This document shows, in pieces, positions 33,378 to 64,000 of a stretch of DNA of 64,000 bases. Each line of letters starts with the position of its first letter. Position 1 is the first letter of the stretch. Under the pieces are notes generated by a model. It saw only the letters and a list, made by a program, of their open reading frames with translations, was not told where the DNA came from and did not search any database. Source of the stretch: Scatophagus argus (Eukaryota; Chordata; Actinopteri; Scatophagidae); the NCBI RefSeq assembly GCF_020382885.2, contig NC_058494.1, forward strand, positions 11,798,001-11,862,000. Reading direction: 5' to 3'. The translations under genes were made by a program, and so were the position numbers.

Positions 33378-36300
33378 TTAATTTATTTGCAATTTCTTTT
33401 CACAGACCCAGGAGAGTGAAAGGGAACAGTCTTCATCGTTCCAGCTATTTTCATCATTAAAACTCTTTATATTCCCACAGTTTTCTTGTCTTTTACCGTT
33501 GGGCTCCCCTGAACTCCAGTAGCTGAAATTTAAAAAAAGAAAAAAGCTTTTTGTAAGAGAGTACATGCCAAGAATCACAAGGCAATTATTTGATATAGTT
33601 AAACAAAATGTGTTAACTTGTTGGTCATTCGAGTCCCATCCACCCATTTCCATGTCCCTTCGTTCTCCAAGTCAGTCAGGCCAATCCACATGTACGTCTT
33701 GAATTTGTTAGCAAAATCCTTGTTAAAAAAGACACAAACAATATTCTTATTGTTTATTCTTACTTATACTTTCATGTTAGGTTTATTTTTCAAAGACTCT
33801 CTCTCTCACACACACACAGAGCTGTGTTTCCATCACTACTGGGGACATTACATAGACTTACATTCATTTCCTGGAGGCTCAACCACCACCTAATCAAAAC
33901 AACAAACATAACTTGCACAGTCCTAACCCTTACCTTAACCTAACCCTAATGTCACCCTAACATTTATTGATTTACACTGCCGCAACTACAGGAATACGCG
34001 CCCACACACACACACGCACACACACACACACACACACACACCTGTTCTTCTTTGCTGTTGATAATCATCAGATCTGCACCTCGTTGAAGACAGTCATCTC
34101 TGCTTTGTTGCCAGGTTTTCTTGGAAGGAAAAGCACGATAGAAACTACCTCTGAAATACTCCCATTCTTCTTGAGCATAGAGAGAAACAGAAAGAACCGT
34201 AATATTTAATACAACAACACCAATAAACAAATGGCCCTGCCACAAACCAAAGAGAAATCTGTACCTTTGCCATATCATATGAACAAGGATTGACAAGTGA
34301 CAAGGATTTAACTTTACCATCACACCTCCCAGTCATTCCTCTGTAGCACTTCCACCTCCAGTGTGTCTTCTCTGTTACATTAAATCTCTCATTTCAACAC
34401 CTTTCATTGCTTACATTACAATTCCATCCCTATTACTATTACAATTCTTCACAAAAGAGTATGAGGAGCTGCTCCTTCACATAGAGTTAAGCTGGCAATG
34501 CAGTTCAGCTCCCATCTACAAGCACAATAGCTCAGTGTAATCTTTTCAGCAGCCAGCAGTCCCACCACGATTTCCTCAGAAACTGCATTCTTTAGTTACC
34601 TTGATGCATTCTCAGAAGATCATTTCTGTCTTTGGCCAGGGCTTCAAATCGTTCTTGCAGCTGGTCTTTCTCTCTTGACAGCTGGTTGTAACTGGTCTGT
34701 AACCGGTCTTTCTCTCTTGACAGCTGGTTGTAACTGGTCTGTAACCGGTCTTTCTCTCTTGACAGCTGGTTGTAACTGGTCTGTAACCGGTCTTTCTCTC
34801 TTGACAGCTGGTTGTAACTGGTCTGTAACTGGTCTTTCTCTCTTGACAGCTGGTTGTAACTGGTCTGTAACTGGTCTTTCTCTCTTGACAGCTGGTTGTA
34901 ACTGGTCTGTAACTGGTCTTTCTCTCTTGACAGCTGGTTGTAACTGGTCTGTAACTGGTCTTTCTCTCTTGACAGCTGGTTGTAACTGGTCTGTAACTGG
35001 TCTTTCTCTCTTGACAGCTGGTTGTAACTGGTCTGTAACTGGTCTTTCTCTCTTGACAGCTGGTTGTAACTGGTCTGTAACTGGTCTTTCTGTAAAGTCA
35101 GCTTGTTTTCTAACTGGTTTCTCTCCCTGATAAGGTTGCTGTAGTTTGTCTGTAACTCATCCATTTCTTTAGTCAGGTTGTTATAGCTGGTGTGTAACAG
35201 GGCCATCTTCTCCTTCTGCTCAGAGTTGGTAACTGTGTTTGACACATACACAAAACAAAAACAAAAAACAAAGAAACACTGTCAACATGTCAACAAGAAT
35301 TATCTTCTTTGGGCTTTATCAGCATGCTATCAAAGTGCATATATCCAAGAAAGAAAGATAGCAAAATTTTTATTTTAATTTATATTTTAATTTAATTTTT
35401 AATTTTAATTTTATCAGTCCCAAGCTGGGAAATTACATCTCTGCATTTAACCCATCACTGATTTAATGAATGCAATGAAACACACAGGAGCAGTGGGTTG
35501 CATCTATCATGCGCCTGGGGAGCATACTGGGGGTTAAGTGCCTTGCTCAAGGGCACATCAGCCAGCTAATGGAAGGGGGAGGGGGGCATATGATGTCAGT
35601 TTTATCTTTGTGTTTTTCAAATTTTTACTTTGTTTTGTAATAAAGGGTTTTACTGTTTTCAGTAATTTATAACAGCATGGCCTGTACCAATTAACAGTCA
35701 GTCAGTTAATAGTCAGTTAGTCAGTTAATTAGAAAATCAGAAATTATTGACAAAGATGACATCATTTATAACTTCTTTAACCTATTTTAAATGTGTAATA
35801 ACAAATATAATATTTGTTTGGTGACACTAGAAGAAAAGCCACTGGATTGTCAAAATCAGATGGCTTCATTCCCCTGGGATGGACAGACATGAAATATGTT
35901 GAATAAATCTGAAAGAATTCCCACAGTTATACCATCCGTGTGAAGTGATCATATTGTCCTAAGAATAGCACAGAAGAAAAGCTCTCATACTGCCACCAAA
36001 TGAAATGACACTGTGTAATGTGCTTCCAGTCATTCATACTGTGAGAATAAGTGACTTCAGTGTTTCCCTGAAAAAAAGGAAAGAATAAAAAAGAAAGCAA
36101 ACAAACAATGATCCAACGACTGTTCCATGCAAGCACCCAGTAGCAGTGGCAGATCAATACAGTCTGGTATCATATTCCATAAATGTATATGCTAGGAATA
36201 TGACAAACAAGCAAAAATGTTAATCAGCATCACTTGCTTAGTGATTTATCATCATGCTAACTAAATACACACATATTAATATGGAAACCGTGATTATGAG

Positions 36301-39058
36301 TCCAGTCAGGAGCAGAAGACACAGCACACTCAGAAACACCACAGTCCCTCTGTTGGGACTCTTGTTTTCTTGTTTTCTGTCTCCAGCACCTGGAATTAGA
36401 GGACAGTATCTGTAATGTGTTTTGTTTCAGTATCAAATCAAATACAATTTTATCAAGCCTTTTACTTTTACTTGATAATAGGGGTGGGCATTGGCAAGGA
36501 CTCCATGATACGATACATATCACAATACATTTGGTACCATACGATACTATCACAATATATTGCGATACTGAATTTATTGTGATATATTGCGATATTCAAC
36601 ATAGTTCAATGAAAATGTAAAACTAGAGTTTAATTATCAGTTGCTGTGTACAATCTGGATAGTCTTACGTCTTATCAAAACTGAATTAAATCAACATAAC
36701 TCAGAGTAACTCTATTTATAACTCAATTTATTTTAATATGATATTGAAAAACATCTGGGAGGTAGATTCCATTGTAACAAAAATATTACTCTTACATAAA
36801 CTGAACAAACTGAACCAGTGGACACACTGATGTCAAAAACAAAGTGCATAGTATTTATAAAACTATAAATAAACTGACTTAAACTATAAGTTCTAGTTTA
36901 TTTATAGTTTATTTAGGGTTGTCAAAACATTAACGCGTTGCATTAACGCCATAATTAATTAATGATGCGTAATAATAAATTTTATTACGCAGTTATTTTT
37001 ATTATAATTATTATTTTCAAAGTCCGTTGCTCACTAGCTATCCAATCGTTGCTCACTTGCTCACTAAAAAAAACTGCGTTAATGTGCGATAAAATAAAAA
37101 ATAATAATTGGTGGCGTTGAATGCCATAATAACGCATTGACCAGCACAGTCCTAATGCATTAGCGCGCTACCGTTTTGACAGCCCTAAGTTTGTTTATAG
37201 TTTTAAACTATAGTTTAAGTGAATCGTTGCGATAAGTTCGCAAATTCGTCGTGTTCCCACAATATTTAACACAAGTCTGACACAGTTTGCAAATGGCATT
37301 TCCCATGTCCATACTTTGGTACCTGGTTTTCTATAGAATCCAAAGTGTGCCCACACACCTGCTTTAAAATGTGAGAGAGCCACTCTTAACTTTTCCGCTG
37401 TCTCAGCCATGTTGGACTTTCTCTAAAGCTTGCCCTTAGTGACCACCGGACCGCCACTACCCATCAAGGCAGCAAGCAATACGGCGATATCTACAGGATT
37501 GGAGATTGTATTTGTGTTTGGCTGATGTTGGCTGATGTTTTATTAATTTTATTTTATTAAAAATCGATTTTTGGAGTCAGAAATTGATGTAGTATATCGT
37601 GAAAAGAATTATCGCGATACATTGCCATAACAATATTTTTGCAAACCCCTACTTTACACACAGATCAAGATAGAGAAAAAGCACAAAGTGTAAAGCAGGC
37701 ATATTGCTTCATATGAGATGCTACATTGTATAATCTTAATGTTTTCTTCTGAAGGTTATGAAGTTATAAAAACTGAACATGTCTGACATAAGATTTCCTT
37801 CAGATCTCTGTAGCTTTTCTGACAGTTGCACCAACCTGTTATCAGTTGGGTGTGCAGAGGCGAGAAAGTTAGCTGGTCTAAGCTGCTCTCAAGGTTTCCA
37901 CTACATGAATGGGCAAAACCCCCATAGAAACTCTTCAAAATCCTTTAGAGAGCCTTCCCAGAAGAGCGGAAGCTGCCACAGTGGGACCAACTTAATGTTA
38001 ACCATGTCTATGCGCTTAGAATACGATGTCACTAAAATCCTTGTTGGTGTAATGGTCAGGCGTCCTAGTACTTGTGTCTGTATAGTGTGTGCACTTTATT
38101 TAAATGAATATTGCAACTTCTTCATATGACGGCCAGTTTCATCAACACTTTTGAGAAGGCATAACCACAGCATAACCCAGCCCTTGAGTCTGCTTCTTGG
38201 AAACTACTAACTGGAGAGTCTAAGGGTTTATGGAAAATTGAAAGCGCAACACAACATTTCTGTATTTCATTTCTTACTAACGGTTATGAACAGTCAACCC
38301 ACAAGGCAAATATCCCCTTCAGCAAACTGAATTATATGTTCATGAAACAGAAAGTTTAGGTTCATTGGTTTTTGATTCTCAGCAAGGCCTCAGTTTGTTC
38401 CATATTACCAAATCAACGAAAACAGCAATACAGAAAAACAAACTATAAATGTAAAACTACCGTGTTTCACATCTTCATGATGGGAAGATGATTGTTCCCT
38501 GATCAAACAGCATAATAATGAAAATCAATTTCATAATTTGTGATAGTAATTCCCAGTAGCTGAATCTAAGTACTGAATGGCATCACTGCAGGATTCAATA
38601 CAAGCAGGTTTGATCTCTAACCCAAAGAAGAGAAAAAAAAAAAAGAAAATATAAAATGAGAAAGAAGAGCGTGTGAACTTCTTTTGTCTCTTTGACTTTT
38701 ACTTCACATTAGAATAGCTTGTCACACAGGGCATTAAAGTCTTTGTTTTCTCCCAGACAAGGTCCTTCAGAACATAAAGTCTATTTGTGTGTGTTGATAT
38801 TTAAGGAACACATGTAAACACATGTAAATACATTCATTTCATAAATCAGCAGTCAACGTCTTATTATAGTATGCACATATAAGAATTTGTCTGCATGTGT
38901 TCATTACCGGAAAGTGGAGGTTCAGCTTTGTTTGGCTCCAGTGTGTGGATCCTTTCTTCATTTGCATAAATACTTTCTGAGCATTTTCGTGAACTCGTCC
39001 TCTTGCCTGGATTACCCAATGGTCTTTGTACGTTAACATAGATATCAAATTGATCCAT
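33378..39058 (-). CDS. C-type lectin receptor 1, type II membrane protein with 14-residue repeat neck (424 aa)
   Basis: Six exons in frame: 38908-39058 (cytoplasmic, MDQFDIYVNVQ...), 36273-36389 (transmembrane, TVVFLSVLCLLLLTGLI), 34600-35232 (neck), 34042-34169, 33618-33718 and 33378-33522 (lectin domain, ending CEKKLQIN). The tail has YVNV, a Y-x-N motif of Grb2-SH2 type, and SIYANE. The neck exon encodes three diverged and ten near-identical 14-mers KDQLQTSYNQLSRE, two heptads each, predicted to be a long coiled-coil stalk. The lectin domain shows WIGLTD, WKWVDGT, GEPN and WND, so Ca2+-dependent mannose/fucose-type binding is predicted. The four core Cys (DCLQRGA, NCG, EDC, WVC) are present; the extra N-terminal Cys pair of long-form domains is absent. 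First of a tandem array on this strand. CD209/CLEC4-like is the nearest class; exact orthology unclear. Confidence 0.88.
33788..34041. repeat. CA/GT microsatellites beside the lectin-domain exon donor
   Basis: A short (CA)n lies at about 33806-33820. A longer interrupted (CA)n at about 34000-34041 runs directly into the splice donor of the exon at 34042, so the donor GT is the first unit of the (GT)n tract on the minus strand. A degenerate ctaaccct-rich stretch lies at about 33925-33960. Confidence 0.8.
34681..35100 (-). repeat. Coding 42-bp minisatellite, ten units
   Basis: Ten head-to-tail 42-bp units, each giving KD(Q/R)LQTSYNQLSRE. Across units I see a single variable base (C or T), giving Arg in the three units nearest the lectin domain and Gln in the other seven; the last 12 bases of the tenth unit diverge. 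The unit is a multiple of three, so unit gain or loss keeps frame and changes stalk length. Confidence 0.95.
35375..35590. repeat. Teleost LINE 3'-end fragment
   Basis: Contains the widely dispersed words gggaaattacatctctgcat, ttaacccatcactg, gagcagtgggttgc and tgccttgctcaagggcac, which I recognise as a recurrent fish retroposon tail. Lies in the intron between the neck and transmembrane exons of lectin gene 1. Confidence 0.55.
36478..37651. mobile_element. Degenerate DNA transposon (GGGGTGGGCA-ended), hosting a second element
   Basis: Starts taggggtgggca and ends tgcaaacccctac, an imperfect inverted terminus of about 12 bp. It has the typical internal ATCGATTT and repeated gcgatat/cacaatat words of a very common fish element, probably hAT-related. 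No transposase frame remains. I could not identify a clean target duplication. Confidence 0.55.
36914..37187. mobile_element. 274-bp hAT-like MITE nested in the larger element
   Basis: Termini tagggttgtcaaaac and gttttgacagcccta are inverted repeats with one mismatch. The flanking octamers AGTTTATT (36906-36913) and AGTTTGTT (37188-37195) form an 8-bp target duplication with one mismatch. The interior is rich in attaacgc words. Non-coding. Confidence 0.75.
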
Positions 39059-40979: not shown

Positions 40980-40990
40980 TTACAGATCCA
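40945..40990 (-). repeat. Heptamer tandem (GATTACA) at the stop codon of lectin gene 2
   Basis: Four adjacent GATTACA-type units on the plus strand followed by further ATTACAGATCC copies that overlap the TAA stop. The pattern could shift the stop by slippage, since the unit is not a multiple of three. Confidence 0.7.
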
Positions 40991-43900
40991 CTGTCTTTTC
41001 ACAGATCCAGATATTTTGAGTTTCACATGGTTTATCATTCCAGCTGTTTTCATTGTCAAAGAACTTTATTTCTCCACAGTCTTCATCACTGCCTTTATGA
41101 CTGTTAGGCTCATTCGTGCCCCAGTAGCTGAAAACCCAAACACAAAGAATATGTGATACTAGTTTCTGATGTTGATGCAAATGTATTGCGACTGATTTAG
41201 AAATAATGTGCACGAACCTTGTGGTCAGCGGAGTCCCATCCACCCATTTCCACGTTCCCTCCTTGTCTCGATCAGTCAGTCCAATCCAAATGAGCCTCCG
41301 AAAGCGCCTTGTGAATTCCTTGTTTACAGAGAGAAACAAACAACCATATTCACAAATGCAACATGAAGTAACTGTAATCCTCTACCTTGGTTACCTCCGT
41401 CTCTCTCTCACTTTCAAAATCAGAATCAGAATTCCTCTTTTATCCTTCTTTTTTGTACAGACATTGCACTTGCAATTTTCCTGACCAAGAAAGAAACTGA
41501 AAAATATAAAAACAGGATAAAAACTAAAATAAGTATAAATTTAACATCTAAAATAACAGGTATTTACATGTGTCTGTACATATATACATTTCCAGGGAAA
41601 AATACCGTTACAGTGCAGAGTTTAACAGTTTGATGAAACTGAACTGACTGAATGAGCTCCTGTAGTTAATCAGCACATTGTGGAGAGGGTGAGAAGGAAA
41701 GTCCAGTATTGTCCTTATTTTGGACAACATCCTCCTGTCAGACACCACTGTCAGAGAGTCCAGTTCCTGTCCCACAACATGGCTGGCCTTCTTGATGATT
41801 CTGTTGAGTCTGTTAGTGTCTCCCACCCTCAGGCAGCTGCCCCAGCAGGCAACAGCGCATGTGATGGCACTGGACACCACCGACTCATAGAACATCCTCA
41901 GTGCTGTCCTGCAGATGTTGAAGGACCTCAGTCGCCTCAGAAAATAGAGCTCTGGCCCTTTCTGTAAACAGTGTCCACGTTTTTGCACCAGTCCAGTTTG
42001 TGGTCCAAGTACACCCCCAGATACTTGTATTCCTCCACCACCTCCACAGTGGCCCCTTTGATGTTGATAGGGGTCACTGGATCCTTAGTCCTCCTCAGGT
42101 CCACCACCAGTTCCTTGGTCTTAGGTCGTAGGTGGTTTTTCCCGCTCCATGTGACAAAGTTGGAGCATGGTGCGGGAACCCCCTCTCCCCGGTGGAGCCC
42201 CAGTGATGCTGATCACTGCGTCTGACATGCAGCACTTTAGGCGTACGTACTGTGGACTGCCAGTCAGATAGTCTGCGATCGAGGACACCAGTGGGGCAAC
42301 CACCTGCATCGCTGTCAGCTTCTCAGCCAACAGAGCCGGCCCGATGGTGTCAAATGCACTTGAGAAATCAAAGAACACGATACTCATAGTGCTTGTCGAC
42401 TTGTCCAGGTTACGGATACACACACACGCGCAAACACACACACGCACACACACACCTGTTCTTCTTTGCTGTTGATAATCACTAGGTCTGCTCCTCTCTG
42501 CTGACAGTCAATCCTGCTTTCTTGCCAGGATTCCTTTTGTGAAGAAATGTAATAGAAACTGTTGTTGAAATACACCCATCCTTGACGAGAATATTCAGCT
42601 GTTAAAAAAGAAAAAGAAAAAGATCTAGTGATGTGGGTGTCTTCCTTTGTAGCATCTCTAAGGAGTGTATAGCCATTTACTAAATGATTTGTAACACTGT
42701 AATGTAGTTGTGTGACTTGTGCAGGACCATTTTACCTCCTTATTAACATCCATGAAGACATATTTTGCACTATTACAGCAATGTTTTAATAAATCTTTAT
42801 TCATTTCCTGTATACATCAGGCTTCACTTCTGGGGAGTGTTTACAGATAGTTGCTGACAAATATATTGTGAAACATTTACATGCGCTTATAGATCAACCA
42901 AGTACACTATAAACCATTTATTCAATGTTTATATTTTACTTATAAATGCTAAATACTGGGACTTAAGTGTTGCTATGCTGTGCATGTGGTCATCATCTCC
43001 ACAGCTTAACAGGATGGAGTGGTTCACTTAATATTTCCAGCGAAGTTAAAAGAAAAAAAAATTGTCTTTGTGTTTTGTTTTTTTTTTACAGTAACAGCAC
43101 TGGTGTACAGGATGTGGCTGCTGGCTGTGTTGCACAACCAATTATAGAGATGCTAAAGTAGTTAAATATTTATTTTTGCGTGGTAATTTCCTTTTATCCA
43201 CTCCTGATGTTATCACAGCAGCTTCTCTCTTTATCATGGTCACACTTCTTATTATTGAGGGGCTTAAAGGAAAAGAAAATGTTGCATGACTTAGACAAAC
43301 ATAGAAGACAGAATTCATTTTTAGTGTGAGATGGCAGAATCATTGAAACACATATAAAATGAGCATAATAAATGTTTAACATAGTCAAACACACGAAGTT
43401 TGAAAATAGAAACATAAATTCATTGTAAGACTCACTGAAGATGGCCAGCTTTCTCTTCAACTCGCCCCTCTCTTTGGTCACGTTTTTAAAAATGGCCTCA
43501 GTATGGGATGTTCCATCTTCAGAGCCATCTGAGAGAGCAGATTTACAGTCTTTTTTATTAAAACTGCAGTTCATTCATCATTTCAGATTGCCATTACTTA
43601 GCATGGTTATCTGGGCAAAAATCTGTTTAACAGCAAGCAAAATCTAACATAACTATTTGGAAATGTTACAAATAAGGTTTTGAAGAACATGATGATGATG
43701 AGTTTTAGTGAGCTTGATTTGATTTAAGACCATAATGAAAATGTAAAAAGCTGGAAACTATTGGAAAGCACTGTCGCCTCATAGCAAGAGGGTTCCAGGT
43801 TCGAATCCCGGTCTGGGACCTTCTGTGTGGAGTTTGCATGTTCTCCCTGTGCCTGCGTGGGTTTTCTCCGGGTACTCCGGCTTTGCCCCTAGGTGTGAGT

Positions 43901-45186
43901 GTGAGAGTGTGTGGTTGTCTGTGTGTTGGCCCTGCGATTGACTGTCGACCAGTCCAGGGTGTACCCTGCCTCTCGCCCGTAGTCAGCTGGGATAGGCTCC
44001 AGCTCCCCCGCTACCCTGACGGATAAGCGGTATAGAAAACGGATGGATGGATGGATGGATGTTTCATTGTCAATTTATGCAGTGTAGTTTATAAGTACAG
44101 CCTAGACTGGTTTTGTAATATGATGTGCTGTGAGAAACATAGAGGGCAACTGTCATAGCTTGAAACTGTGGTGGTAGCAGTTCCACATTCTGGTCTTACA
44201 TTAATAATCAGAAGAGTGAGACATGGTTGAACTCACAGAGAGTCAGACGCAGTGAAATGTTGAGAGCAGCTTGTAAGATACACAGGAGTCCAAAGCTCAC
44301 GGCAACAACTCTGTACACATTTGCCCCTGTGTGCAGAAATCAAACAGGCATACACTTGCAAAGACATTGTTTGTTGTTGATATTGTTATTACCTATCAAA
44401 CCAAGTTCATGTTACTTTTTCTACGCTGCTTCAGTTGATGAAAACAAGTGTTGACTTCATTTGTGATTTGTTACCACATTAGGTGTCTTTGAGTCATTTT
44501 TATTGACACATCTATGATATAAATGGCTAAAACTAATCAGACAAATTAATTCCATTCTTATCTAGCACCACATATAATTATGTGAGAATGTGGATGAAAG
44601 ATAAAAGTGGTGATAAGAAACAAATGCAGTTTGGAGTCTTGGTAGGTTTCTTTCATGCTTTTTAAAATCTCAGTCTTTGTTCTGTCTTTCGCAGATAGCC
44701 TGATACGGTACACAGGTCATTGCATTTGGTTGCGGTTCTTTTGTGTGCATAAAACTCTCTAAAATAAAAATAGATAGATAAGATAGAAATCTCTGTAAGT
44801 GTCAAATTTGGCTTCTGTGTGGTTCAACTAGCAAAACTGTGGCAATAGCATGTAAAACAAACAGCATTAAAATGAAAAACACAAACTGAACAAAATATGT
44901 TTATAATTATTTGAGATATCCTCACAAATTTACAACTGTGTGTTAAAAAGCAAAAATATTTTCCATGTATAATTTAGTTATATCCTTTCTAAATAGCTTG
45001 TTCCTAAAGAACAACTGAGCAAAAAATAAAAAATGAAAAGAAAGCATGCTCAAGACCTCAGTGTGCTTCAAGGATCTTCTTACCTAAACGTCTTTTTCGA
45101 TTGTTGCTTAAAGTTCCAACGTCGTCATAGAAGTGATAGCCATTTATTTCTTCTGACATGTTCAGATACATGTCTGAAGTAGCCAT
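40980..45186 (-). CDS. C-type lectin receptor 2, type II membrane protein (225 aa)
   Basis: Six exons in frame: 45084-45186 (cytoplasmic, [13 protein letters not shown]), 44237-44326 (transmembrane, [20 protein letters not shown]), 43436-43528 (short neck), 42456-42598, 41218-41318 and 40980-41127 (lectin domain, ending CEKTVDL). YLNM in the tail fits both Y-x-N and Y-x-x-M SH2-binding patterns. The membrane segment carries polar Q/N and an Arg near its outer end, as in genes 3, 4 and 6. The lectin domain has WIGLTD, WKWVDGT, NEPN and SWNDKPC, keeping the EPN/WND Ca2+-sugar site. The intron between the first two lectin exons holds a LINE fragment, and the neck/transmembrane intron holds a SINE. 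Ligand unknown. Confidence 0.88.
41405..42420 (-). mobile_element. CR1/L2-like LINE reverse-transcriptase fragment, frameshifted
   Basis: Minus-strand RT remains in three frames: [16 protein letters not shown]...[11 protein letters not shown] (near 42150-42400), [16 protein letters not shown]...[14 protein letters not shown] (about 41970-42120), and [23 protein letters not shown]...LNRIIKKAS (about 41608-41950). The block that should carry the catalytic YADD is deleted after GAPPG. The 3' end carries the acagacattgcac tail and (ATTCTG)n, as at 31731. It sits in the intron between two lectin-domain exons of lectin gene 2. Inactive. Confidence 0.8.
43770..44062 (+). mobile_element. tRNA-derived fish SINE with (GGAT)n tail
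   Basis: Contains ggttcgaatccc, a pol III B-box, then the conserved teleost body gtgtggagtttgcatgttct and tgcgtgggttttctccgggt. It ends gataagcggtatagaaaacg followed by (GGAT)n at about 44041-44060. Located in an intron of lectin gene 2. A decayed relative lies at about 47850-48085. Confidence 0.75.
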
Positions 45187-46363: not shown

Positions 46364-49300
46364 TTAGAGCTCCATTTTCTTTTTGCAGATCCAGAAGTTT
46401 TTATTTTCACATGCTGCATCATTCCAGTATCCATTTATACTGTGTGTTATTTCTACACAGTCTTCATTTCCTCTATGATTGTTAGGTTCATGGGATTGCC
46501 AGAAACTGAAATGAAAAACAGAAATTAGAAACAAACGAGGAAGTATTTAATCACCAGAAACGCATAAGATATGGCCATGTTAAAGTTCAAACAGCAATTA
46601 AAATCAATGCTTTGTTGTATGTGATGTAGTCATTTCATAGATATTCTAGACCGACAAAAGCTGTGTTATGTTATGCTCTGAAAGAACCTTAAATCCCATT
46701 AGTTTCAGCACTTTAATTAATCTGAATGAAAGAGAAATGTGTGAACCTCGTTGTCAGCGCAGTGCCATCCACCCATGTCCACTCTGCCGCTGCCTCTCTC
46801 TTTGACAGTCCAATCCACATTATCTTCTGGTACTGACTGGCAAATTCCTAATCAATTGATAATTTAGCAGTCTATTTAGTGGTGTGTTCATTTAATATTA
46901 TATATAAACACACACACACACACACATACCTGTTCTCCTTTGCTGTTGATAATCACCAAATCTCCTCCTCTTTGCAGACAGTCATCTCTACTCTCTTGCC
47001 AGGTTTTCTTGATTGAAGAAATGTAATATAAACTACTGTTGAAGTCCACCCACCCATGTTGGAAATAGACAGCTTTGACTGAGGACAAAGCAAACAAACA
47101 AACAGAAAAAATCCTCAATATCTCTGTATCAAAAAGAATAAACAAATTAATCTCAGACAACAAAAGTGCAGGTCATATTAACGCTGTTAACAAATGATAA
47201 ATATTTACACACTGTAAATATCACATATGAACGAGTACACCTAGTGTGTGTGGCAAACAGGAATGTCTTTGATCACAAGAGTAAGAGAACGGAACAGGAT
47301 TTTGAGGATTTTTCTTCATCATGAGCATGGCTATTGACACCTTGACACATATACAGTGTGTATATATTTTGTTTTAATATTTAATACATTTTATCTTACT
47401 TGCATGCATGTATATATATATTTTGTTTCTATTGTGTATTTTGCTTTTAGTATTTAATACTAAATTATACAAAATTATAGTTTCTATCCAATTTTTTTAT
47501 TTTATGCTTGCTATTTGTTTGTTCCTGTACATATTTTGTCTTGTGATGCTGCAATACTTGAATTTGCCCTCTGGGAATCAAGAATGGATTATCTTATTTG
47601 CATACTTACTTGATTTTACCTTTTTATCAAATATATCCTAAAAGCAGTCTATTCACCTCACACTTACCAAAGTTAGTCAGCTTGATCTTCAGTTCCTCTT
47701 GCTCCTCAGTACAGCTTTTTAATATGCCCTTAATGTCCAGTGTCTTATCTGCAAAAACAGAAAGACTTATCAAAGTTTGTCCCCAAATTATGGGACTATT
47801 TAATTTAATACAATATGAAATTTGTATTTTCATCTAATGTGGGATGGAGGTGACAATGGAGGTGACAATGGTCAGTACTGTTGCCTCACAGCCAGAGGGT
47901 TCTGCTCTAGCTTCCTACAGAGACATACAGGTTAAGTTGACTGATGAACGGAAGCATGAATGGATGTTTGTTGCCATGTGTCAGCCCTGTGATGAACTGT
48001 TGACCTGTCCAGGGTGAATCCTGCCTCTTGCCCAGTTGGGACCTGCTGCAGCACTAAAGAATAAGTGGTGATAGATAATAGGTGTATGGATAGTTGAATA
48101 GTTCCATTAGGCAACTGGATGTGAAGTTTTTCTAGAAGACATTTTGCCTCTCATCCATGAAGCTTCTTCAGTTCTAACTGATGGTGGGGAGTACTGGTAT
48201 ATATATATATACTGTGGGTGTGACAAAAGGCAATTGGAAACAAAGGTGCCTCAGGTCCCTCCTATTGAGTGGGCCGGTAGGGTCACCTGGGGAAGTGTTA
48301 ATGGTTGTGAGGGGGTTCTGATGTGTCATTGAAATCCCCGTCAGAGTGGTTTTGGTCACATGCCTCTTTGATGTGTGAACCTAGTGGGAACGGGTGAGAA
48401 ATGAATTTTTTGGGTGTTATAAGTGGGTGACACGTGGTGTCTTAGACCACCTGCTCTGTTGACTGATGTTTTTTCTAGGTTTTTCCAGGTTGACAAAGAT
48501 GTTCCCAATTGCCTTTTGTCACACCCACAGTATATATATTCGAGTACTCCCCACCATCAGTTAGAAGAAAAACTTCACATCCAGTTGCCTAATGGAACTA
48601 TTCAACCTTGACCATAACCTGGATGACTCTGAATCTCCATAGATATGATGTATGGATAATAGATAGATAGATAGACAGATGGATAGATACTTTATTGATC
48701 CCGAGGGAAATTCAAGTGATGATTTAATCTATCGGTAACAGATAATGTAGTTTAATGTAGTTAAATCATAAAAAGATGCCATTAGGGGGTAAACTGACTT
48801 TATGTACATAGAACTAAAAGCAGGTTTACAATTTGAATGTTTTGACTTGGGTTCAGTTGTTACTTGAAAAAAATTCATGGCACGAGTTTTGTGTGATAAC
48901 AAGCTCCGAATTCTGCTGAATCAACTTTGAACATCATCCCACCACAAGTTTTGATGAAACGCCAAACAGGAAAGAAACTGCAACGTGAGTGAATGTTACT
49001 GAATTGTAAAACACATGAATGAGCCCAACAAGACCAAGTTGTATTGAAGTAATACTATCATTAATGAAGCAATCTGCATGCCACTTGAAAGCTATATTTA
49101 GACTAAAAAAAACAAAACAAACTGTTGTTACTCCTTAAGCCCTGTAGTCTTCTTAAATTATACAATTATACTGTAACACTGTACTGCAACACCACATTGT
49201 AAAGCCTGTTTTTATGCGGATGGAACAATTTTAATTGTAATTGGCTTTTCTCTTAATCTGACCACTACAAACCTACAGTATCCTTTAGATACATTTCATG

Positions 49301-51067
49301 CATAATTTTACGTGGGTATTAAATATAAAACATCATTTCAAAACTGGAATATGCTATCCTCATCTATAGGAAGACAATAGCTCTTGTCACCTTAGCTGTC
49401 TCCACTAGTGATTCTGCATTAAAGTGTTTTGTAGGTTCCTATATTTCTCACTCCAAATGTCAGCCTAGCAACATCCTCATAGTTTTTGATTGAGAAATCC
49501 AACTTTAACAAGTAAGTGTCAAGTTCAGGAGTACATACATGTGTATTTTGTTCAGACTTCCTCACACTTTTGGCCACAAAGTCATTGTGATTATACTGGC
49601 TTTCATTTATGACAGTGAATCATCATAACAGAACTTTAGACACTAACTGGGATTTTTTGAGATGACATAAGTGTCAACACCTTGGACTCACACCCTTTTT
49701 TAACTCTGATTATTAGTGTAGTTTAATCATCATACTTACCAAAGTTGATGCGCTTCAAAATGTCGTCAGTCAGATTTTTACAAGTGGCATCGATACCTGG
49801 TGTAGAGGCTAACATCATTTGCAACAGAATCAGATTTTGTCCCCAGGAGACAATTGAATTTAACACAGATTTACACAGAAAGCTGCACCTCTAGTGGTCA
49901 TGATCAATTTCTCTCACTGGTGTTAGAATAATAATATTTATTATTATAGTAATATAGTAATGCAATATAGTAATGCAATAATTCAAGAGAACTCACAGAG
50001 AGCAAGACGCAGGCAAATGTTTAGGGCAGCTTGTGAGATACACAAAAGACCCAAGAAACAAATGCTCACAGCAGTGCATCCATACAGTTTTTGTCCTGTG
50101 TGTGGAAAACATAAGTGCACACACACATACACACACACACACACACATACACACACACACACACACGCACAGTGTGTTACAATATTTTTGTAGCACTTCT
50201 TCAAGATTGCACTGTGTAGTTACTTCACATTTTCTCCCTTTATCTTTGTACAGCATGTGTTTTCTAATTTATTTCCTGTTCCTCTTGTGTTTATAAATAC
50301 CATAGTTATCTGATTGCTGGTGTGTTTTGGAAGAAGATTAAAAAGGAAGTGACTGCTGTAGTCACCCGGTTGTCTTCGGCTTGCGGCAGTTATGACGTGA
50401 CTTTAATTGACAACTTAAACTTGTTTTGGAAACCAAAAGTCTTTTCTGATTCTGATTCTGATTCTGAAGACAACTTTATTTGAGGGATGACCTTCATCCA
50501 AATAATGCTGATTTGGATTTGGGTTTGTGGCATATTCTGCGGATATAGAGTCTGAAATTACAAACACTGGCATGGTGTCAATTTGCTTGTCCAAGCATTT
50601 TATTTTCAGGTCTGTTTTTTTGTGAGAACTGCATCAAAGTAAGTAAATAAATAAATAAAAGCATTCAAAATTAAGTTGAAAATAAGTAACGTGAAAAACG
50701 TACAAGATGACGTAATGTATAAAATAAAGATCTAAAATACTGACATAAAAGACCAAAATAACATTTTCACTTCTACACTTTGAATGTGAAAAAAACAAAT
50801 AGATTCTTTGGAGATTATTTCTTAAACTTTTAAATGACAGTGTGCCTTGTATGGTCCAATAGATTTGTATATTCAAAGCAAGATGGTTTTAATGGTTACA
50901 TGGTTAAAACAACCTAACACTGAAAGAATTTTTGTCTCACCAGGTGCTGCAGTAGCCACTTTATGGCTTTCACCAGTGTAGCTCTGCAAGGCAATGCTCC
51001 TGGATGGAGCAGCAGGGAGATTTCCAGTTTCAATAGCGATCTCTGATTCGTCTTCATGTTTAGCCAT
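46364..51067 (-). CDS. C-type lectin receptor 3, type II membrane protein with two neck exons (251 aa)
   Basis: Seven exons in frame: 50941-51067 (cytoplasmic, [16 protein letters not shown]), 49997-50095 (transmembrane, [15 protein letters not shown]), 49740-49796 and 47668-47748 (two short neck exons), 46930-47078, 46747-46847 and 46364-46505 (lectin domain, ending CKKKMEL). The tail aligns with lectin gene 6 (EIAMDYVNLPEA against [12 protein letters not shown]), so the tyrosine of the Y-x-N motif is replaced by Thr. The lectin domain keeps HEPN and YWNDAAC; the middle exon has [13 protein letters not shown] in place of the usual [10 protein letters not shown]. The neck contains CKNLTDD, with a Cys that could link chains. 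The first lectin exon uses a donor set in a GT tract. Non-signalling or adaptor-dependent is inferred. Confidence 0.87.
47850..48085 (+). mobile_element. Decayed copy of the tRNA-derived SINE
   Basis: Follows the 43770 element in order (tgttgcctcacagc.agagggtt, ctgttgacctgtccagggtg, aatcctgcctcttgcccag, aataagtgg) with many substitutions and a deletion. Lies in an intron of lectin gene 3. Confidence 0.65.
48093..48607. mobile_element. Inverted-repeat (foldback) element, about 515 bp
   Basis: Left outer arm 48093-48133 pairs with 48565-48606 (attaggcaactggatgtgaa and its complement). Left inner arm 48172-48236 pairs with 48505-48566 (actgatggtggggagtact and gtgggtgtgacaaaaggcaa). The left arm carries about 40 bp more, containing catccatgaagcttcttcag. 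The arms total over 100 bp with few mismatches. The unpaired centre has no coding frame I recognise. Confidence 0.75.
48655..48716. repeat. (GATA)n plus retroposon tail tttattgatcccgaggga
   Basis: A GATA-type microsatellite joined to a very common fish LINE 3' end. A second example is at about 54988-55035. Confidence 0.6.
50105..50167. repeat. (CA)n microsatellite, interrupted
   Basis: CA repeat with two ATAC interruptions, just upstream (minus-strand sense) of the transmembrane exon of lectin gene 3. The antisense Cys/Val-rich frames it creates are not genes. Confidence 0.9.
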
Positions 51068-52940
51068 ATTTTACCTGTTGGAGTGTGATGGAAGTTACTG
51101 TTGGTGGCTTCTTCTTAGACTGGTTCATTCTGTGATCTGCTTCTCCTTTTGTATATTGCTTTCCCAGCAAGGCACTCTTGCTTACTTCCTCATTTTTAAG
51201 TATTTTTTTTTAATCAATAATCACATTTTTTCCTGTTGAAAATGCATTTGTAATTGGTAATTGTGAGGTAGCTCAGAGTCCAGTCTGAAAACAATTCTCA
51301 GTGCATCACAAGGCTCATACAATCTCTTACTGTATGACCATATTGTTGACAATACTTTGAACTGATACTAAATAAGTCAAAGTTGAGATCAGGTCAAAGT
51401 TTGAAGTGGGGAAGATGTGGTCACTAGAGGACAGCTGAGGCAACAAAAAAACCTCCTGAAATACTGTAAGAAATGTTCTTCATTTTGAGGACCACTAGAT
51501 TACGGTACATGTTGAAAGTTGAACTGAAGTACGCGTAACTGACCTGACTCAAAGCCATTTCCAAAACCTTGAGACAATTCCATTTGGAATTTCAAAATTA
51601 TTTTTGGCTAACCCCTGACCTTTTGACATTTTTAGACAACACAGAATGATTTCTGTCATTGAACACAAAATAAATCATTACTGCTTTCTAAAAGAGATGC
51701 TGGCAAACAGTGAGAATCAATCAGTTCATACAACAGAAGTCTCTTAAAGACTTAGTTAAGGCTGCCATTTAGATTAACTAACATGAACAGGCATCTCGTA
51801 TAGTTCAGTTGTCTTTTTCTGCCATCTACTGCATGTGGTAGGATTTTGATTTTTTTTTTAAAATTATGATAGAAAACATAATAATAAATGACAATAAAAC
51901 ATATTTAACTAAATATATTTTGCACACTATACAGTATTCTCAAAAAGAGAAGGTTGGATGATACATTTTCAATCATGTCAGAAAGCAAAGTACACACATT
52001 TCAAGAGCAACCATCTGCCATGATGGAGTGAAAATTTGATTGTCAAACATAAGGTGGGAGCAAAGGTTTTCTTATGGGTTTTGTAAAAACATGTCTGGAT
52101 ATACTGTACTGTCACCATGCACTGTTATCATTTAACTGCAGAATAGAATATCAGCTTGCTCAGGTTTTTGTAACTGTAATCTCTAATTACATTTATCTTT
52201 GTTCCTGCAGAAGTGTTTGAAGCAAAAGAGACCAATGTGTGAGATGAATTTGCAATAAATGTTTGTTTATTTATTTAAAATATTTTGAAGCAATAGTCCT
52301 CATCAGAATGGCAGAAATGAGACCACATCGCAGCAGTGCTATATAGCAGCAGTAACTAATATCCCTGTCTGGAAACAGGTTTGGGCACACACTGCATTCC
52401 AGTAATAATCACAAATCTACCCCCTCCTGCCTCTTTTCAGCACCTTACAGTCACAATGTTTACAGTACCTTACTATGTCTATAGCTTTAATTTATGTATA
52501 TATAATTTTCACTATGCATATGTATTTTAATTTCATACTGCACTACTGTTCACATGTATATACCTTTCATTTCATATTGCACTATTTGTTTACAATTTTC
52601 GATATATATTTCCTCTTGTTGCCTGAGATGTCCTGTGACGTTTCTGCCTTTGTTATCTGCCATGTTGTTTTTGCTATTTATTGTTTAAATTATTTTTTGT
52701 GGTGTACAGTGGCTGTCGAGAGCACCTCCCCTCAGTCTTAATGCTAATGTATGATCAACATTCTGGGTTTCCTTCCTCGTCAATGTATTCTGGTGATGGG
52801 GCTCTAAAAATTTTTTGGGGAAATGTGGGCTTAACGTGGATGTAAGACCAAAGCAGAAAGAAAAGTGTGTTTTCAGTTTGGCTTACTGTGGTTGTAATTC
52901 TACTGAAAAAGTGATTATCCTGGTAAATTTGGATGCTCAG
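51068..52940. other. Spacer between lectin genes 3 and 4
   Basis: No exon recognised. AT-rich, with short T/A tracts only. Confidence 0.4.
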
Positions 52941-55514
52941 TTATAGAGGAACTTTCTTTTCACAGATCCAGAAAATTGAAAAATCACACGGCTTATCATT
53001 CCAGTTGTTTTCCATTTTATGGTATCTTATTTCTCCACAGTCTTCCTCTTTGAGTTCAAAGCTGTTAGGCTCATCATTCATCCAGTAGCTGAAACCCAAA
53101 ATCAAATAATGCATGATTTGTAAAGGACACAACCCAAGAAACATTTCATCGACCAAATCATGCAGGGTTTTACTGATATAAATGATAAAGCTGTATGAAA
53201 AATGCCTAAACCTTGTGGTCAGTGGAGTCCCATCAACCCATTTCCATGTCCCCTCTGTCTCTCTGTCAGTCAGTCCAATCCACAAGTTATCCTTCAACTG
53301 TCTTGTGAATTTCTTTATACAAAGTGAAACAGCAATCAATAAAACCATGAAATTAAACAAATTTGAATTCATCCTCGACCACAACTTGACTTGCTTTCAT
53401 TCAATATTTTTTTGGTTTCCATCTCAAACATTAATTGATTAGTATAGGTATAGGTACACACACCTGTTCTTCTTTGCTGTTGATAATCATCAGGTCTGCA
53501 CCTCTTTGCAGACAGTCATCTCTACTCTCTTGCCAGGTTTTCTTGATTGAAGAAATATAATATAAACTATTGCCGAAGTACACCCATCCTTGTTGGGAAT
53601 AGTTTGCTTTAATTGAGCACAAAAAACAAACAAACAAACAAAAAAAATCAATAACAACAATATTTCAGTGACAAAGTACTAGAGTAAAAGTACTAAAGTA
53701 AAGAGTACTATTATCCATTGGCGGTGCTCAAACTAGAAGTGTGTGAGGCTAACAGGAAGCCTGAAACTGATACTGGTTGATTAGAAGTTGCCACACTTAG
53801 TATTTATTTAAAAACTATTGGCAGAATATACTCAGAAAGAAAATTATTTACAGAATATTTTTTTGAATTTTTCTTCATCGTGAGCATCGTGTCACATTTC
53901 ACATGAATGATACTCGGAAAAAGTCACCTGTATCAGATACTCATTTCAGCTGAGTACTCGCTTAGCTGAACTGAATAAACAATGGTTAAATGATCAGATG
54001 AAAACAGAATTAAGGAGAATTGGATGCTTAATTTACTTCACTTCACTTCTTTATCATTTATATCCTAAATAGCAGCCATGCAAGCAGCTCTGTGAGGCTG
54101 TAATCAGGCATAGCAGTGCTAGCAGCGAAATGCTAATGTGGTCACAATGACTACAATTACCCTGTTCACCATCGTGTGTGTGTGTGTACACCTGATAATT
54201 ACCAAAGTCAGTCAGCTTGATCTTCAGTTCATCTCGCTCCTCTGTGAGGATTTTTAATTTGGTCTCAATGTCTTGTGTCTTCCTGTCTGCAAAAGCAGAA
54301 AGACTGATCAAAGTATCAAAAAATGTCCACAAATTACAAGATAATTTACTTTAATACAATATGAAAATCATATTTTCAACCACAGACTTACAGTGGTAAG
54401 TACTACTTCCTCACCTGCTGAATGGGAGCATTCAATCAACAATCATCAGTTAGTTATTATTATGTTTTCCGATTGCTTCTGATTCTAAACATCACAAAAA
54501 AACTTTTGTGTATGCACTGCATGCGATTTGTGCTTGTAAAGTTATCATATTTGCACACAGATTGAAGAGACTAGGTTGACAAAACATACATGCAAAGGGA
54601 CAAAACAGAAAAAAATAATCATCCTCATCAATATGACAATACATGTGCAGCTTTTAGTAAAAAATACAGCTGTTATAAGTCAGAAAATGAAATGAAATAA
54701 AAAACAAAACCAAATGCAGAAATACTACAAGTCATACAGAACTCAAAGAACATTAGTTAAAAAGGTTTTTCTTTTGATAGACATTAAATAATTATGTTTT
54801 TGATTGCATGAGTTGAACTGGTAAATGAGAGATCAGCAAATATCTCAATTGCGCAATCAGAATATTTAAGAGGAAAAAACAACTTCAGTCTTTGATTTCT
54901 CAGTAATAGGTGTGTTCTCTCTTTGCAGAGTGTTTCTATATTTGGTTGTTATGATTTATTAATGCTGTACATGTACTGTCAAATAAATGAAGATAGATAG
55001 ATAGATACTTTATTGATCCAGAGGAAAATTCGAGATGTTTACTCCATTTGCTTGTGTCATGTCAATTTGCATGTGATTTCTTCTGTGTTGGGCTTTATAG
55101 AGTAATCAAAATTTAAATAGAACAAAAAAGAAACACAAGTTGAAAGAACAATATCAAATGACTCACAGAGGGCAAGACGCAGTGAAATGTTAAGAGCAGC
55201 TTGTAGGACACACAAGAGTCCAAAACTCACAGCAACCACTCTGCAGAGTTTTTCTCCTGAATCAAAACATGCATGCAACATTTCTGCTGTTAATGAGCAG
55301 CCAGGCTTGATATTGTGATCTTTGAAACAAGAAACTGTCGAGCCATTTTTGCTTCACTTCTTGTACACTGTCTTTGGATAACTTCATATGTAGTCCATAA
55401 CCTAAGTATGGTATTTTCTGTAGCAATGTAATTTTTGTAAGCATGACAGTGTCAGCCTTAAAGTTACTTACTCCTGGATGAAGGATCAGACAGGTTTTCA
55501 TCTTTCGGAGTCAT
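52941..55514 (-). CDS. C-type lectin receptor 4, type II membrane protein with minimal tail (202 aa)
   Basis: Six exons in frame: 55472-55514 (short cytoplasmic start [14 protein letters not shown]), 55167-55256 (transmembrane, [20 protein letters not shown]), 54203-54286 (neck, [14 protein letters not shown]), 53464-53606, 53212-53312 and 52941-53088 (lectin domain, ending CEKKVPL). The tail has no tyrosine. The lectin domain keeps WIGLTD, WKWVDGT, DEPN and NNWNDKPC. The acceptor of the first lectin exon (CAATTAAAG) is weak; related genes use CAG there. The donor GTGTGTACC is the remnant of a GT tract. Closest paralogue by neck sequence is gene 3. Function as a soluble-tail or adaptor-coupled binder is inferred. 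Confidence 0.86.
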
Positions 55515-58291: not shown

Positions 58292-58846
58292 CATCACAGA
58301 TCTAAATGAGGGGGTACTCCTTTATGCATAACATTTCAGAGGGGCAATTGCACAAATTTTCTTTTCAAAGCATGAAATTATCAGTAAGCATAAACATATA
58401 TTTATCCCTAGGCAATAACTCATTATAAAAAGGCCACTTCCATTGTGAAGCTATCTTTTAAGCTAAGCTAAAATAAACATAAAATGAATAATATATTTTA
58501 TGGTTTGTACACTTTTCTTTCCTTGAGATATATATATATTCATCATTCATTTTATCACATGCAAAATTTTATTATACATTTGATGTCACAAACATTAACT
58601 AGCCTATAACTAATAAATAGACCTCCTGACAGCATACAACGTACTGCATTTACACATGACACACTCACAACTTACAAACATCCAAAACTGTTTCCATCTG
58701 TAAACTCCAAAAGGTCCTGAATATCTTGATTCTCAGCAAAGACACTTGGTATAGCACCTCAACTCCTTTTTCAGTGCAGTTTGGCAAAGCAGTTTAGCAT
58801 CAGCTTTTCAGCATTGAGTAATCCCACAACAATCTCCTCAGAAAAT

Positions 58847-59885
58847 CTAGTCATTTGTGTTGTTGTGTATCTGTTCTTTTGCACTGATGAGGTTGTTGTA
58901 TCTGGTCTGTAATGCATCTCTTTCTTTCGTCAGGTTGTTGTACTTGTTTTGTAACAAGGCCATCTCCTTTTTGCACTCAGAGTTGCCCTTGGTAACTGTG
59001 TATGCGACACAAACAAACAAACAAACACTGTCAACCAGTTTTGATCTTCCTAGGGCTTTATCAGCAGGCTAAAAAGTAACTCACAGATAAAAATCAGAAT
59101 GATGAGTCCAGCGATGAGAAGAAGACACAGCAGAGCCAGAAACAATGCAGAAGCTCTGCAGGAACTCCTCTTTACATCCGTAACCCCTGAAGGTGGATAC
59201 AATCTTATGTCATTTGTTTGTTTGCATTTCAGTGTCAGATCAAATAAAATCAAATCAGTGTTTGTGTTGTTACTTCTCATAACACAACACATTGCAGTGA
59301 ATCAGTGAACTGATCTGTGCTCAGGTGTTCGGATAGCGTTACCACAAGTAAGGAGATGTGTAATTCTAATGATATTCAAAGTGACAAAAGTAACCCATTG
59401 AAACCATTCAATAGTATGGAACATATGTTTTTGTATGAGTCAACAAAAATGTGTATTCACACATGCATTTGTTTAGCTTTGTATATTTCTTTAAGAGTGC
59501 AAAGCTTCTACTGTTCTTGAAGTAAAACCATTAAAACAGTTGTTTGTCACTTGGTGTTTGTCTCTTTCTTCACTTTATAGTTTCACATCCAAGTTATTTT
59601 TCCTCAACACATCTGTGTCTGTCTGTCTGTTTGAGTGTCAAAATGTAGTGTACATGTAATCTTTGTATGTGTTTGTATGTGTGTATTACCTGAGAGTGCA
59701 GGCTCAGTGTTGATTGGCACCAGAGAGCAGCTTAGCACATTTTCATAAATATTTTCGGAAGTTTGCATTTCCCTTCTCCTCGAGCAAGGATTACCCATCT
59801 CTGCATTGACATTGGTGTTCACAGCGGATCCATGATGCATAGCCATACAAACAGTACACTTCGGTCTGGTTGTGCCTGAAGCCAT
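58847..59885 (-). pseudogene. Truncated lectin-receptor gene 5: tail, membrane segment and neck but no lectin domain (148 aa)
   Basis: Three exons in frame: 59690-59885 (cytoplasmic, MASGTTRPKCTVCM; an ATG at 59897 is also in frame), 59085-59186 (transmembrane, ALFLALLCLLLIAGLIILI) and 58847-58995 (neck, KEMALLQNKYNNLTKERDAL, then TAG). Closest paralogue is gene 1 (same membrane and neck type, IYENV in the tail). Where gene 1 has the neck-exon donor CAAG/GTAACT, this copy reads CAAATGACT, so the GT is lost and translation runs into a stop. The adjacent intron sequence still resembles gene 1 for about 150 bp. No lectin-domain exon occurs before gene 4. It could still encode a membrane-anchored stalk with an intact tail, so pseudogene is a judgement. 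Confidence 0.75.
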
Positions 59886-60832
59886 CAAAGTCTGCAATGT
59901 GCTTTCAGAATTACAAATTATTGTCCTGAACTTTGTTCAGAGTAACACTTTCTCTGCGTTTTGTATTTACTGATGCGACCACAGACTTAACAGGAAGGCG
60001 GAGAGTGGTGCTGTGAAATATTTTAGGTGACCACCATGACCTATTTGACCTAAAAGTTGCAGCTGCATGAAGGTGCTTTCCATTTGGTTAGTGCCAAGCA
60101 GCAAAATCTCCTGAATTTCACATTTACAACATTTGTTTATCTGTCTGTAGACTGAAAGATAGATGTGATTAGAAGGTCAGTAATCACAAATGCAGTCATT
60201 TGGACTTTTGATAATGTTGTAATGCACTGGTAACTTTATGACATTTTTGACATAACATAAAAAGTGTAATGGCAGTTAACCTTCAGTTTTTCTACACCAC
60301 CACCACAGTTGTCAGTACATTTTGATTTTGATTAAAAAAGTGTCCAGTATTCAATACCCTTTCCCAGTACCACACAATACATTTGTGAATCTTTCCATGA
60401 TATCTTACTGTTTCATTTGAGTCATTTATTCTGCAAGGGCAAACCTCCTTAGATTTTAACTGTAACCTTCACACTTATATTCTGCCAAATGTCCATATCA
60501 CTCACATGAAAAACAAAGGTTTAATATTATATTTGGACAGTAATTCTTTTAACAAATAAATCACTTAAATCATCACTTCAGCAGAAGGCTGAATATAGAC
60601 ATATGTCAAAAAATATCACTCAGTTATACTCTAAATTTCTGTGGAAATAATACTTTCACAATATACATCATCAGTGGCTTTTATCCCCTAAAGTCATGTG
60701 TACACCTTAGACACTCATATATACAAAGTCAGATGATTGTGAACGACTATCACCAGAATTTACTGTACTGCACTGTGTGCAATGGGAATTTGTGCACTCA
60801 GATATCAGCTTTGCAGTGCTACATATACTGAA
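59886..60832. other. Spacer between lectin genes 5 and 6
   Basis: AT-rich. No exon or mobile element recognised. Confidence 0.4.
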
Positions 60833-63694: not shown

Positions 63695-64000
63695 GTTTTA
63701 TCCACTGACAAGAGTGTGATAGTGTGTTGATAGAGAATGTGCTTTTTAAGAATAACGTTGATTTGTAATCAACTTCTTCTTTTAGATTTTTTTCCATTTG
63801 CTAAGAATGCACCACATTTTTGATGTTCCTCATTTTCACTTGACTTAAACACCCACTCTAATCTAAAGCCTTTGACCACTGCTCCACCCACAAGGAAAGG
63901 AAATATATGAACATATATCCAAATACATGCAGAATATATGTTGCATGTATGCCATATTTAGGGTCATATATGTGCATGTATGTGGACATATAGGAAATAT

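Follow-up and report, generated by a model that had tools for sequence, protein, structure and literature searches.

How the stalk of a membrane lectin comes to be built of near-identical repeat units, and what the number of those units means for the receptor, are questions raised by one gene in the DNA analyzed here (the window: 64,000 nucleotides, C2:11798001–11862000). The source is probably a fish, to judge from genome size, the types of lectin and published work. An earlier note on this DNA had described a lectin receptor with a neck of ten near-identical repeats from a coding minisatellite, expanded or homogenized very recently. We asked how far the array, the gene around it and its relatives elsewhere in the assembly bear this out.

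Results

An array of 42-bp units that differ at one base

TRF analysis of the 64-kb window returned 27 rows, among which one 42-bp tandem array is outstanding: it lies on the minus strand at 34661–35091, with 10.3 copies, 99% matches and a score of 841, compared with 87 for the runner-up. A chance repeat can be rejected on this score and on shuffling. At a TRF threshold of 50, 25 of 30 dinucleotide-preserving shuffles of the window contained no array, and the best scores in the remaining five ranged from 52 to 69. The borders given previously, 34681–35100, enclose most of the array, but are shifted; 35092–35100 lies outside it, and 34661–34680 had been missed.

34661..35091, minus strand: coding minisatellite, 42-bp unit x 10.3, each unit encoding 14 residues, LQTSYNQLSREKD[Q/R] (TRF, unit listing)
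34703..34828, minus strand: three adjoining Arg-type (CGG) units, numbers 7–9 of 10 from the membrane side (unit listing)
35092..35200, minus strand: diverged membrane-side neck ahead of the array, comprising two 14-mers and most of an 11-residue piece
34619..34660, minus strand: diverged lectin-side 14-mer, LQERFEALAKDRND, 3' of the array

TRF and a listing of the units agree with the earlier note that there are ten full 42-bp units differing at one base. The single variable column reads CAG or CGG, encoding Gln or Arg, in the best registers, which were 12 out of 45. Starting at the membrane, the order is six units of Gln type, three of Arg type and one of Gln type. The Arg-type units are therefore clustered, as had been claimed, but not at the lectin-proximal end, where the unit is Gln-type. 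Nor can a directional spread of the Arg type be upheld, because its block is internal (units 7–9) and one contiguous variant block gives no direction; decay of CGG to CAG, a common CpG-type change, is an alternative. Each unit further contains a 12-bp internal repeat, AGACCAGTTACA, whose two copies are 31 bases apart, or 11 the other way round the unit.

On both sides, the array gives way abruptly to diverged sequence, in keeping with the diverged flanking 14-mers already reported. Two membrane-side 14-mers (DNA identity to the array unit 29/42 and 29/42) and an 11-residue piece precede the array, and one lectin-side 14-mer (18/42) follows it. The 11-residue piece, located between the membrane-side 14-mers and the array, is three residues short of a unit and represents a possible coiled-coil stutter.

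The array lies within one exon of an intact lectin gene

Using splice signals, phases and paralogues, we assembled a model in which six exons join in phase across five GT/AG introns to yield an intact 424-residue frame on the minus strand.

38908..39058, minus strand: exon 1, start codon and cytoplasmic tail MDQFDIYVNVQ...SIYANEE..., in-phase GT donor; similar exon at 59.6–59.9 kb
36273..36389, minus strand: exon 2, transmembrane (TM) segment, Kyte-Doolittle 2.8 over 21 residues; similar duplicate exon at 59086–59169
34600..35232, minus strand: neck exon, 633 nt, phase 1-1, AG acceptor and GT donor; codes for a 210-residue predicted continuous helix
34042..34169, minus strand: CRD exon 1, assigned by paralogue similarity and splice phase; without a Pfam match on its own
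33618..33718, minus strand: CRD exon 2, WIGL motif; Pfam PF00059 Lectin_C, E 5.6e-7
33378..33522, minus strand: CRD exon 3, EPN and WND motifs and stop; Pfam PF00059 Lectin_C, E 1.7e-4

The 633-nt neck exon postulated earlier is thus modeled at 34600–35232, bounded by AG and GT and in phase 1 on either side, and the near-identical, in-frame tandem units all fall inside it, as in a coding VNTR. Because the protein has a single hydrophobic segment (21 residues from residue 67, mean Kyte-Doolittle 2.8; the next best in the protein is -0.37), we read it as a putative type II membrane lectin, with an N-terminal tail, one TM segment, a neck and a C-terminal CTLD, a topology suggested by the order of these parts. 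The cytoplasmic tail bears IYVNV and IYANE; YxN motifs are able to bind Grb2-type SH2 domains.

The assignment as a lectin receptor stands, more precisely one of C-type, with Lectin_C recognized on two of the three CRD exons and the joined CRD matching 228 distinct solved sequences at E <= 0.001. DC-SIGN (E 3.2e-25), mincle, langerin and DC-SIGNR are among the best 60 of these 228, which are ranked by summed domains and topped by multi-domain proteins of the mannose-receptor kind. In NCBIfam, the tail and TM segment had no match, and the CRD had only a polycystin-domain match far under the cut-off. The CRD translation contains EPN, WND and the four core cysteines. It is without the extra N-terminal cysteine pair of long-form CRDs, having Phe (GSFY) where relatives on C12 and in the right flank (L013) have Cys (ISCY/DGCY); four further lectin genes in the window likewise are without this pair. 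EPN/WND is given as a mannose-type motif in the available text of PMC11084180, which also records inhibition by galactose for an EPN/WYD CRD. On the strength of its EPN/WND motifs, the CRD of the array gene would be of mannose type.

The neck is a predicted continuous helix

AlphaFold2 modeled the 210-residue translation of the neck exon (single chain, no alignment) as one helix spanning residues 2–209, with a mean pLDDT of 94.7. In a heptad register counted from the first 14-mer on, position d is Leu in 28 of 29 cases and position a is occupied mainly by Tyr (12 of 28) or Lys (10 of 28), residues that would not make a strong coiled-coil core there. The 14-mers flanking the array, and those of a truncated duplicate described below, still have Leu in position d, and their first a position is Tyr or Phe. 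Searches with the neck returned generic coiled coils only from the PDB (best E 0.015; 23 sequences at E <= 1) and 72 families at E <= 1 from Pfam, the best 25 of which are coiled-coil-like or unrelated; as these matches are generic, neither search names a family.

The unit corresponds to two heptads, as the earlier note had stated: 42 bp make 14 codons, such that gain or loss of a unit preserves both the reading frame and the phase of the coiled coil. A helix extends by about 0.15 nm per residue. By arithmetic, this makes about 2.1 nm for a unit and about 31 nm for the neck. The stalk would most likely form a parallel coiled coil and hold several mannose-type CRDs off the membrane.

Two lectins elsewhere in the assembly share the period and lack the array

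We searched the whole assembly (570.7 Mb, 48 contigs) for similar necks; the counts that follow are lower bounds. The array DNA found at least three matches, two in its own neck and one, a 74% match, at C12:21.93 Mb; no second near-identical copy turned up among them. With the neck protein as the query, at least ten matches at E <= 1e-5 were obtained in four places: five in the array gene itself, three at C12:21.93 Mb, one in the duplicate within the window and one at C2:5.64 Mb. The C12 neck, in turn, found at least four matches at E <= 1e-5, confined to C12 and the array gene and without the neck at C2:5.64 Mb.

The open frames bearing the two remote necks comprise 244 residues (C12:21.93 Mb) and 275 residues (C2:5.64 Mb), and CRD exons lie downstream of both. 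Protein autocorrelation at a shift of 14 reaches 0.26 in the former (background 0.05, sd 0.02) and 0.25 in the latter (background 0.06, sd 0.01), where the background is taken at shifts not divisible by 7, those divisible by it being raised in general. In both necks, the value at 14 exceeds those at 7 and 21; that of the C12 neck peaks at a shift of 28 (0.29).

Like the array gene, then, these two lectins have necks of 14-residue units in an LQxSYN-like pattern, with CRD exons after them. Unlike it, their units are diverged and form no near-identical DNA array: the best 84-bp window at a shift of 42 is identical at 84/84 positions in the array, versus 50/84 at C12:21.93 Mb and 43/84 at C2:5.64 Mb. 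Near-identical DNA is peculiar to the array gene among the lectin genes compared, a comparison that covers the necks of these two genes; a genome-wide search, scoring 150 of 170 candidates, gave at least 41 matches to CRD exons. To judge from these sequences, the 14-residue neck unit is old in this lectin group and predates the minisatellite. Collections of viral and prokaryotic contigs contained no relative of the array, a result of little weight given that they hold viruses and prokaryotes only.

The lectin cluster and a truncated duplicate

The window contains five CRD-bearing lectin genes, all on the minus strand (33378–63697). The CRDs of the four paralogues of the array gene are found at 41.0–42.6, 46.4–47.1, 52.9–53.6 and 60.8–61.5 kb. 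These paralogues have another TM type than the array gene and short neck-like frames, and a repeat common to all lectins of the cluster was rejected for the window on the latter ground. Their coordinates below give the extent of similar open frames.

40983..44339, minus strand: paralogous lectin gene 2, short neck-like frame, other TM type
46367..51070, minus strand: paralogous lectin gene 3, short neck-like frames
52944..55353, minus strand: paralogous lectin gene 4, short neck-like frame
60836..63697, minus strand: paralogous lectin gene 5, short neck-like frame
58784..59936, minus strand: truncated duplicate of the 5' half of the array gene, with exon 1, TM segment and membrane-side neck

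The duplicate keeps two 14-mers. In local DNA alignment, it matches the array gene up to 35103/58860 and resumes at 34596/58858, at 69% identity in each piece; the second piece spans 75 bases (E 2.9e-6). Judged by this alignment, the duplicate appears to be without the array, the lectin-side flank and the donor (34597–35102). Two global alignments of the neck exon with the duplicate aligned the membrane side and showed no resumption after the array, placing the remainder within the array or in end gaps. No CRD was detected between the duplicate and the next gene with the CRD exons of the array gene as queries (E <= 1). The duplicate resembles a relic, one in which an array may once have existed and been lost.

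Several other features of the region deserve mention. A GT-repeat tract is located at, or within a few bases of, the CRD exon 1 donor in three of the five genes (the array gene and genes 2 and 3; 34041, 42455 and 46929, running downwards), and the other two read GTGTGTGTACC and GTGTGCATA. A reverse-transcriptase-like frame at 42121–42507 on the minus strand (Pfam RVT_1, E 2.2e-4, under the Pfam cut-off) lies within, or next to, the gene 2 intron that separates CRD exons 1 and 2. Outside the cluster, the window holds an open frame at 178–795 with a HECT ubiquitin-ligase match (E 2.5e-18, profile 93–185 of 306 over 128 residues), a weak THAP-domain match at 17159–17551 (E 3.3e-4, under the Pfam cut-off) and a DUF5745 match at 26412–26822 (E 9.7e-7).

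To the right of the window, L006/L007 and L013 contain further lectin CRD exons on the plus strand; those third CRD exons that were seen have QPD in place of EPN. At L013 2995–3291, on this side and at a distance of about 100 kb, two tandem duplications overlap in the neck exon of another lectin, one of 105 bp (2.1 copies, 90%) and one of 84 bp (1.9 copies, 87%), and each unit is a whole number of heptads. Survival of heptad-in-phase duplications alone is a testable idea, for which two cases are too few to serve as proof.

Origin of the array

We consider it probable that the array encodes the stalk of an intact type II lectin of the teleost DC-SIGN/CD209-like (group II) kind in which one unit was recently multiplied or the units were homogenized. 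The recent expansion or homogenization put forward in the earlier note fits, and has its strongest evidence in, the contrast between 84/84 identity here and the diverged necks of the same period in two paralogues, because these relatives show that the protein tolerates diverged units. As we envisage it, the necks of this group are composed of 14-residue, two-heptad helical units, and in the array gene one such unit would have been multiplied, or existing units homogenized, to about ten copies. Unequal exchange or slippage could then add or remove units, each worth about 2 nm of helix, with the protein left unbroken, and the 12-bp internal repeat may aid mispairing. We infer a recent expansion and would expect unit number to set the length of the stalk. 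A star-tree estimate from the one change in 420 sites gives an age of 0.4–2.4 million years (upper limits 2.2–13 million years) at assumed rates of 6e-9 to 1e-9; it ignores homogenization, and we do not rely on it.

Among the alternatives, the one that fares best holds that a long array is ancestral to the group and has been kept uniform by repeated gene conversion. Such concerted evolution would likewise yield identical units, and the long 14-mer necks at C12:21.93 Mb and C2:5.64 Mb indicate that a long neck may be old. Those same two necks, however, have not been homogenized, and the other four CRD genes of the window have short neck-like frames only; we regard this history as possible, if rather doubtful. 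A different concern is that the copy number reflects a repeat collapsed or over-expanded in assembly. Tandem repeats can be misjudged in assemblies, and the accessible part of PMC6868369 offers one example in which short-read assemblies showed fewer copies than those from long reads. Here, however, the array measures 431 bp within a 28.76-Mb contig of an assembly of 48 contigs and 570.7 Mb, which suggests spanning long reads, and its units are arranged in a structured order between clean flanks, leaving an artefact improbable. Strong purifying selection on the coiled coil, which would make the units identical in an array that is not young, accords with the structural constraint visible at positions d and a of the flanking and duplicate 14-mers, yet we give it very little credence and largely reject it as a sole cause, given that codons are identical as well, with a single variable column in ten units, and that the necks at C12:21.93 Mb and C2:5.64 Mb tolerate wide divergence.

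Discussion

It is plausible, as the earlier note had supposed, that unit number may vary between alleles, a view formed from a single assembly. As a circumstantial point, the available text of PMC11346364 places two CD209E entries within the 30 most polymorphic genes of diversity-peak regions in the fish Lates japonicus; this portion of the paper contains nothing on necks. More speculatively, and with considerable reserve, we suggest that the locus may be a convergent, still-polymorphic neck VNTR of the DC-SIGNR type outside mammals, belonging to a family of fish lectins whose stalks are lengthened time and again by duplications in phase with the heptads (of 42 bp here, and of 84 and 105 bp in the lectin about 100 kb away), and in which length and Arg/Gln order vary between individuals under pathogen-driven selection.

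The interest of the locus hinges on such copy-number variation. If unit number does vary, this would be a second, independently evolved pathogen-receptor stalk tuned by a coding VNTR, and the contested question posed by DC-SIGNR, whether neck length affects the outcome of infection, could be put to the test in an animal that offers large families and controlled challenges. As a model of how copy number translates into stalk length and stability, the in-phase unit of two heptads would also be cleaner than the 23-residue unit of primates.

Similar repeats of the LQTSYN type are common among the predicted fish lectins of public protein databases, and specialists may have seen such necks. Within the portions of the literature on fish lectins, necks and minisatellites at our disposal, we found no report of the array. 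The Fugu lectins DC-SIGN-F1 to F8 and XLCMCL resemble the array gene as DC-SIGN-related group II lectins of fish, four of them in a tandem cluster (PMC514892, as far as its available text extends). Among fish lectins, XLCMCL, whose name stands for eXtra Large Coiled coil region containing Membrane C-type Lectin, comes nearest, by name only, to the long predicted helical neck found here. Unlike the array gene, the Fugu lectins are described in that part of the paper without repeat units or a minisatellite, and one-to-one orthology with mammalian CD209 could not be established for them.

The CD209/DC-SIGN proteins of tongue sole and largemouth bass likewise place a coiled coil before the CRD, and both have been found experimentally to bind microbes or microbial sugars (available sections of PMC5618497 and PMC11084180). 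Their coiled coils are short in comparison (residues 65–122 and 100–139), with no repeats reported in those sections, and the largemouth bass CRD is long-form with EPN/WYD, as opposed to EPN/WND without the extra cysteines in the array gene (PMC11084180, same sections).

The closest parallel is with the primate receptors DC-SIGN (CD209) and DC-SIGNR/L-SIGN (CLEC4M), a likeness in principle, with a different unit, that the earlier note had rightly drawn. These are type II group II lectins with a mannose-type EPN CRD and a helical neck coded by repeats; as in the array gene, their units are near-identical, and variant units have Arg at a surface position. The unit differs: 42 bp and 14 residues, exactly two heptads, in the array gene, versus 69 bp and 23 residues in DC-SIGN and DC-SIGNR. 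The array gene CRD also differs from theirs in being without the extra N-terminal cysteine pair. For CLEC4M, the accessible text of PMC3261175 describes a coding VNTR with a 69-bp unit and eight unit haplotypes. According to the available portion of PMC5275740, how stable the tetramer is in model necks of the primate receptors depends on the number of units, a fully stable coiled coil in those of DC-SIGNR type takes no fewer than five 23-residue units, and surface Arg stabilizes the helix through an in-chain salt bridge. The Arg of units 7–9 is at position c, three residues after Glu at g, and by analogy might stiffen the lectin-proximal stalk; the Arg units are nearer the CRD in the array gene, whereas the stable units of DC-SIGN are near the membrane (PMC5275740, same portion). 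Since the 23-residue neck repeats are confined to primates in that account, the array has an independent origin, and its neck is best read as a separate counterpart, in phase with the heptads, of the DC-SIGN/DC-SIGNR neck repeat.
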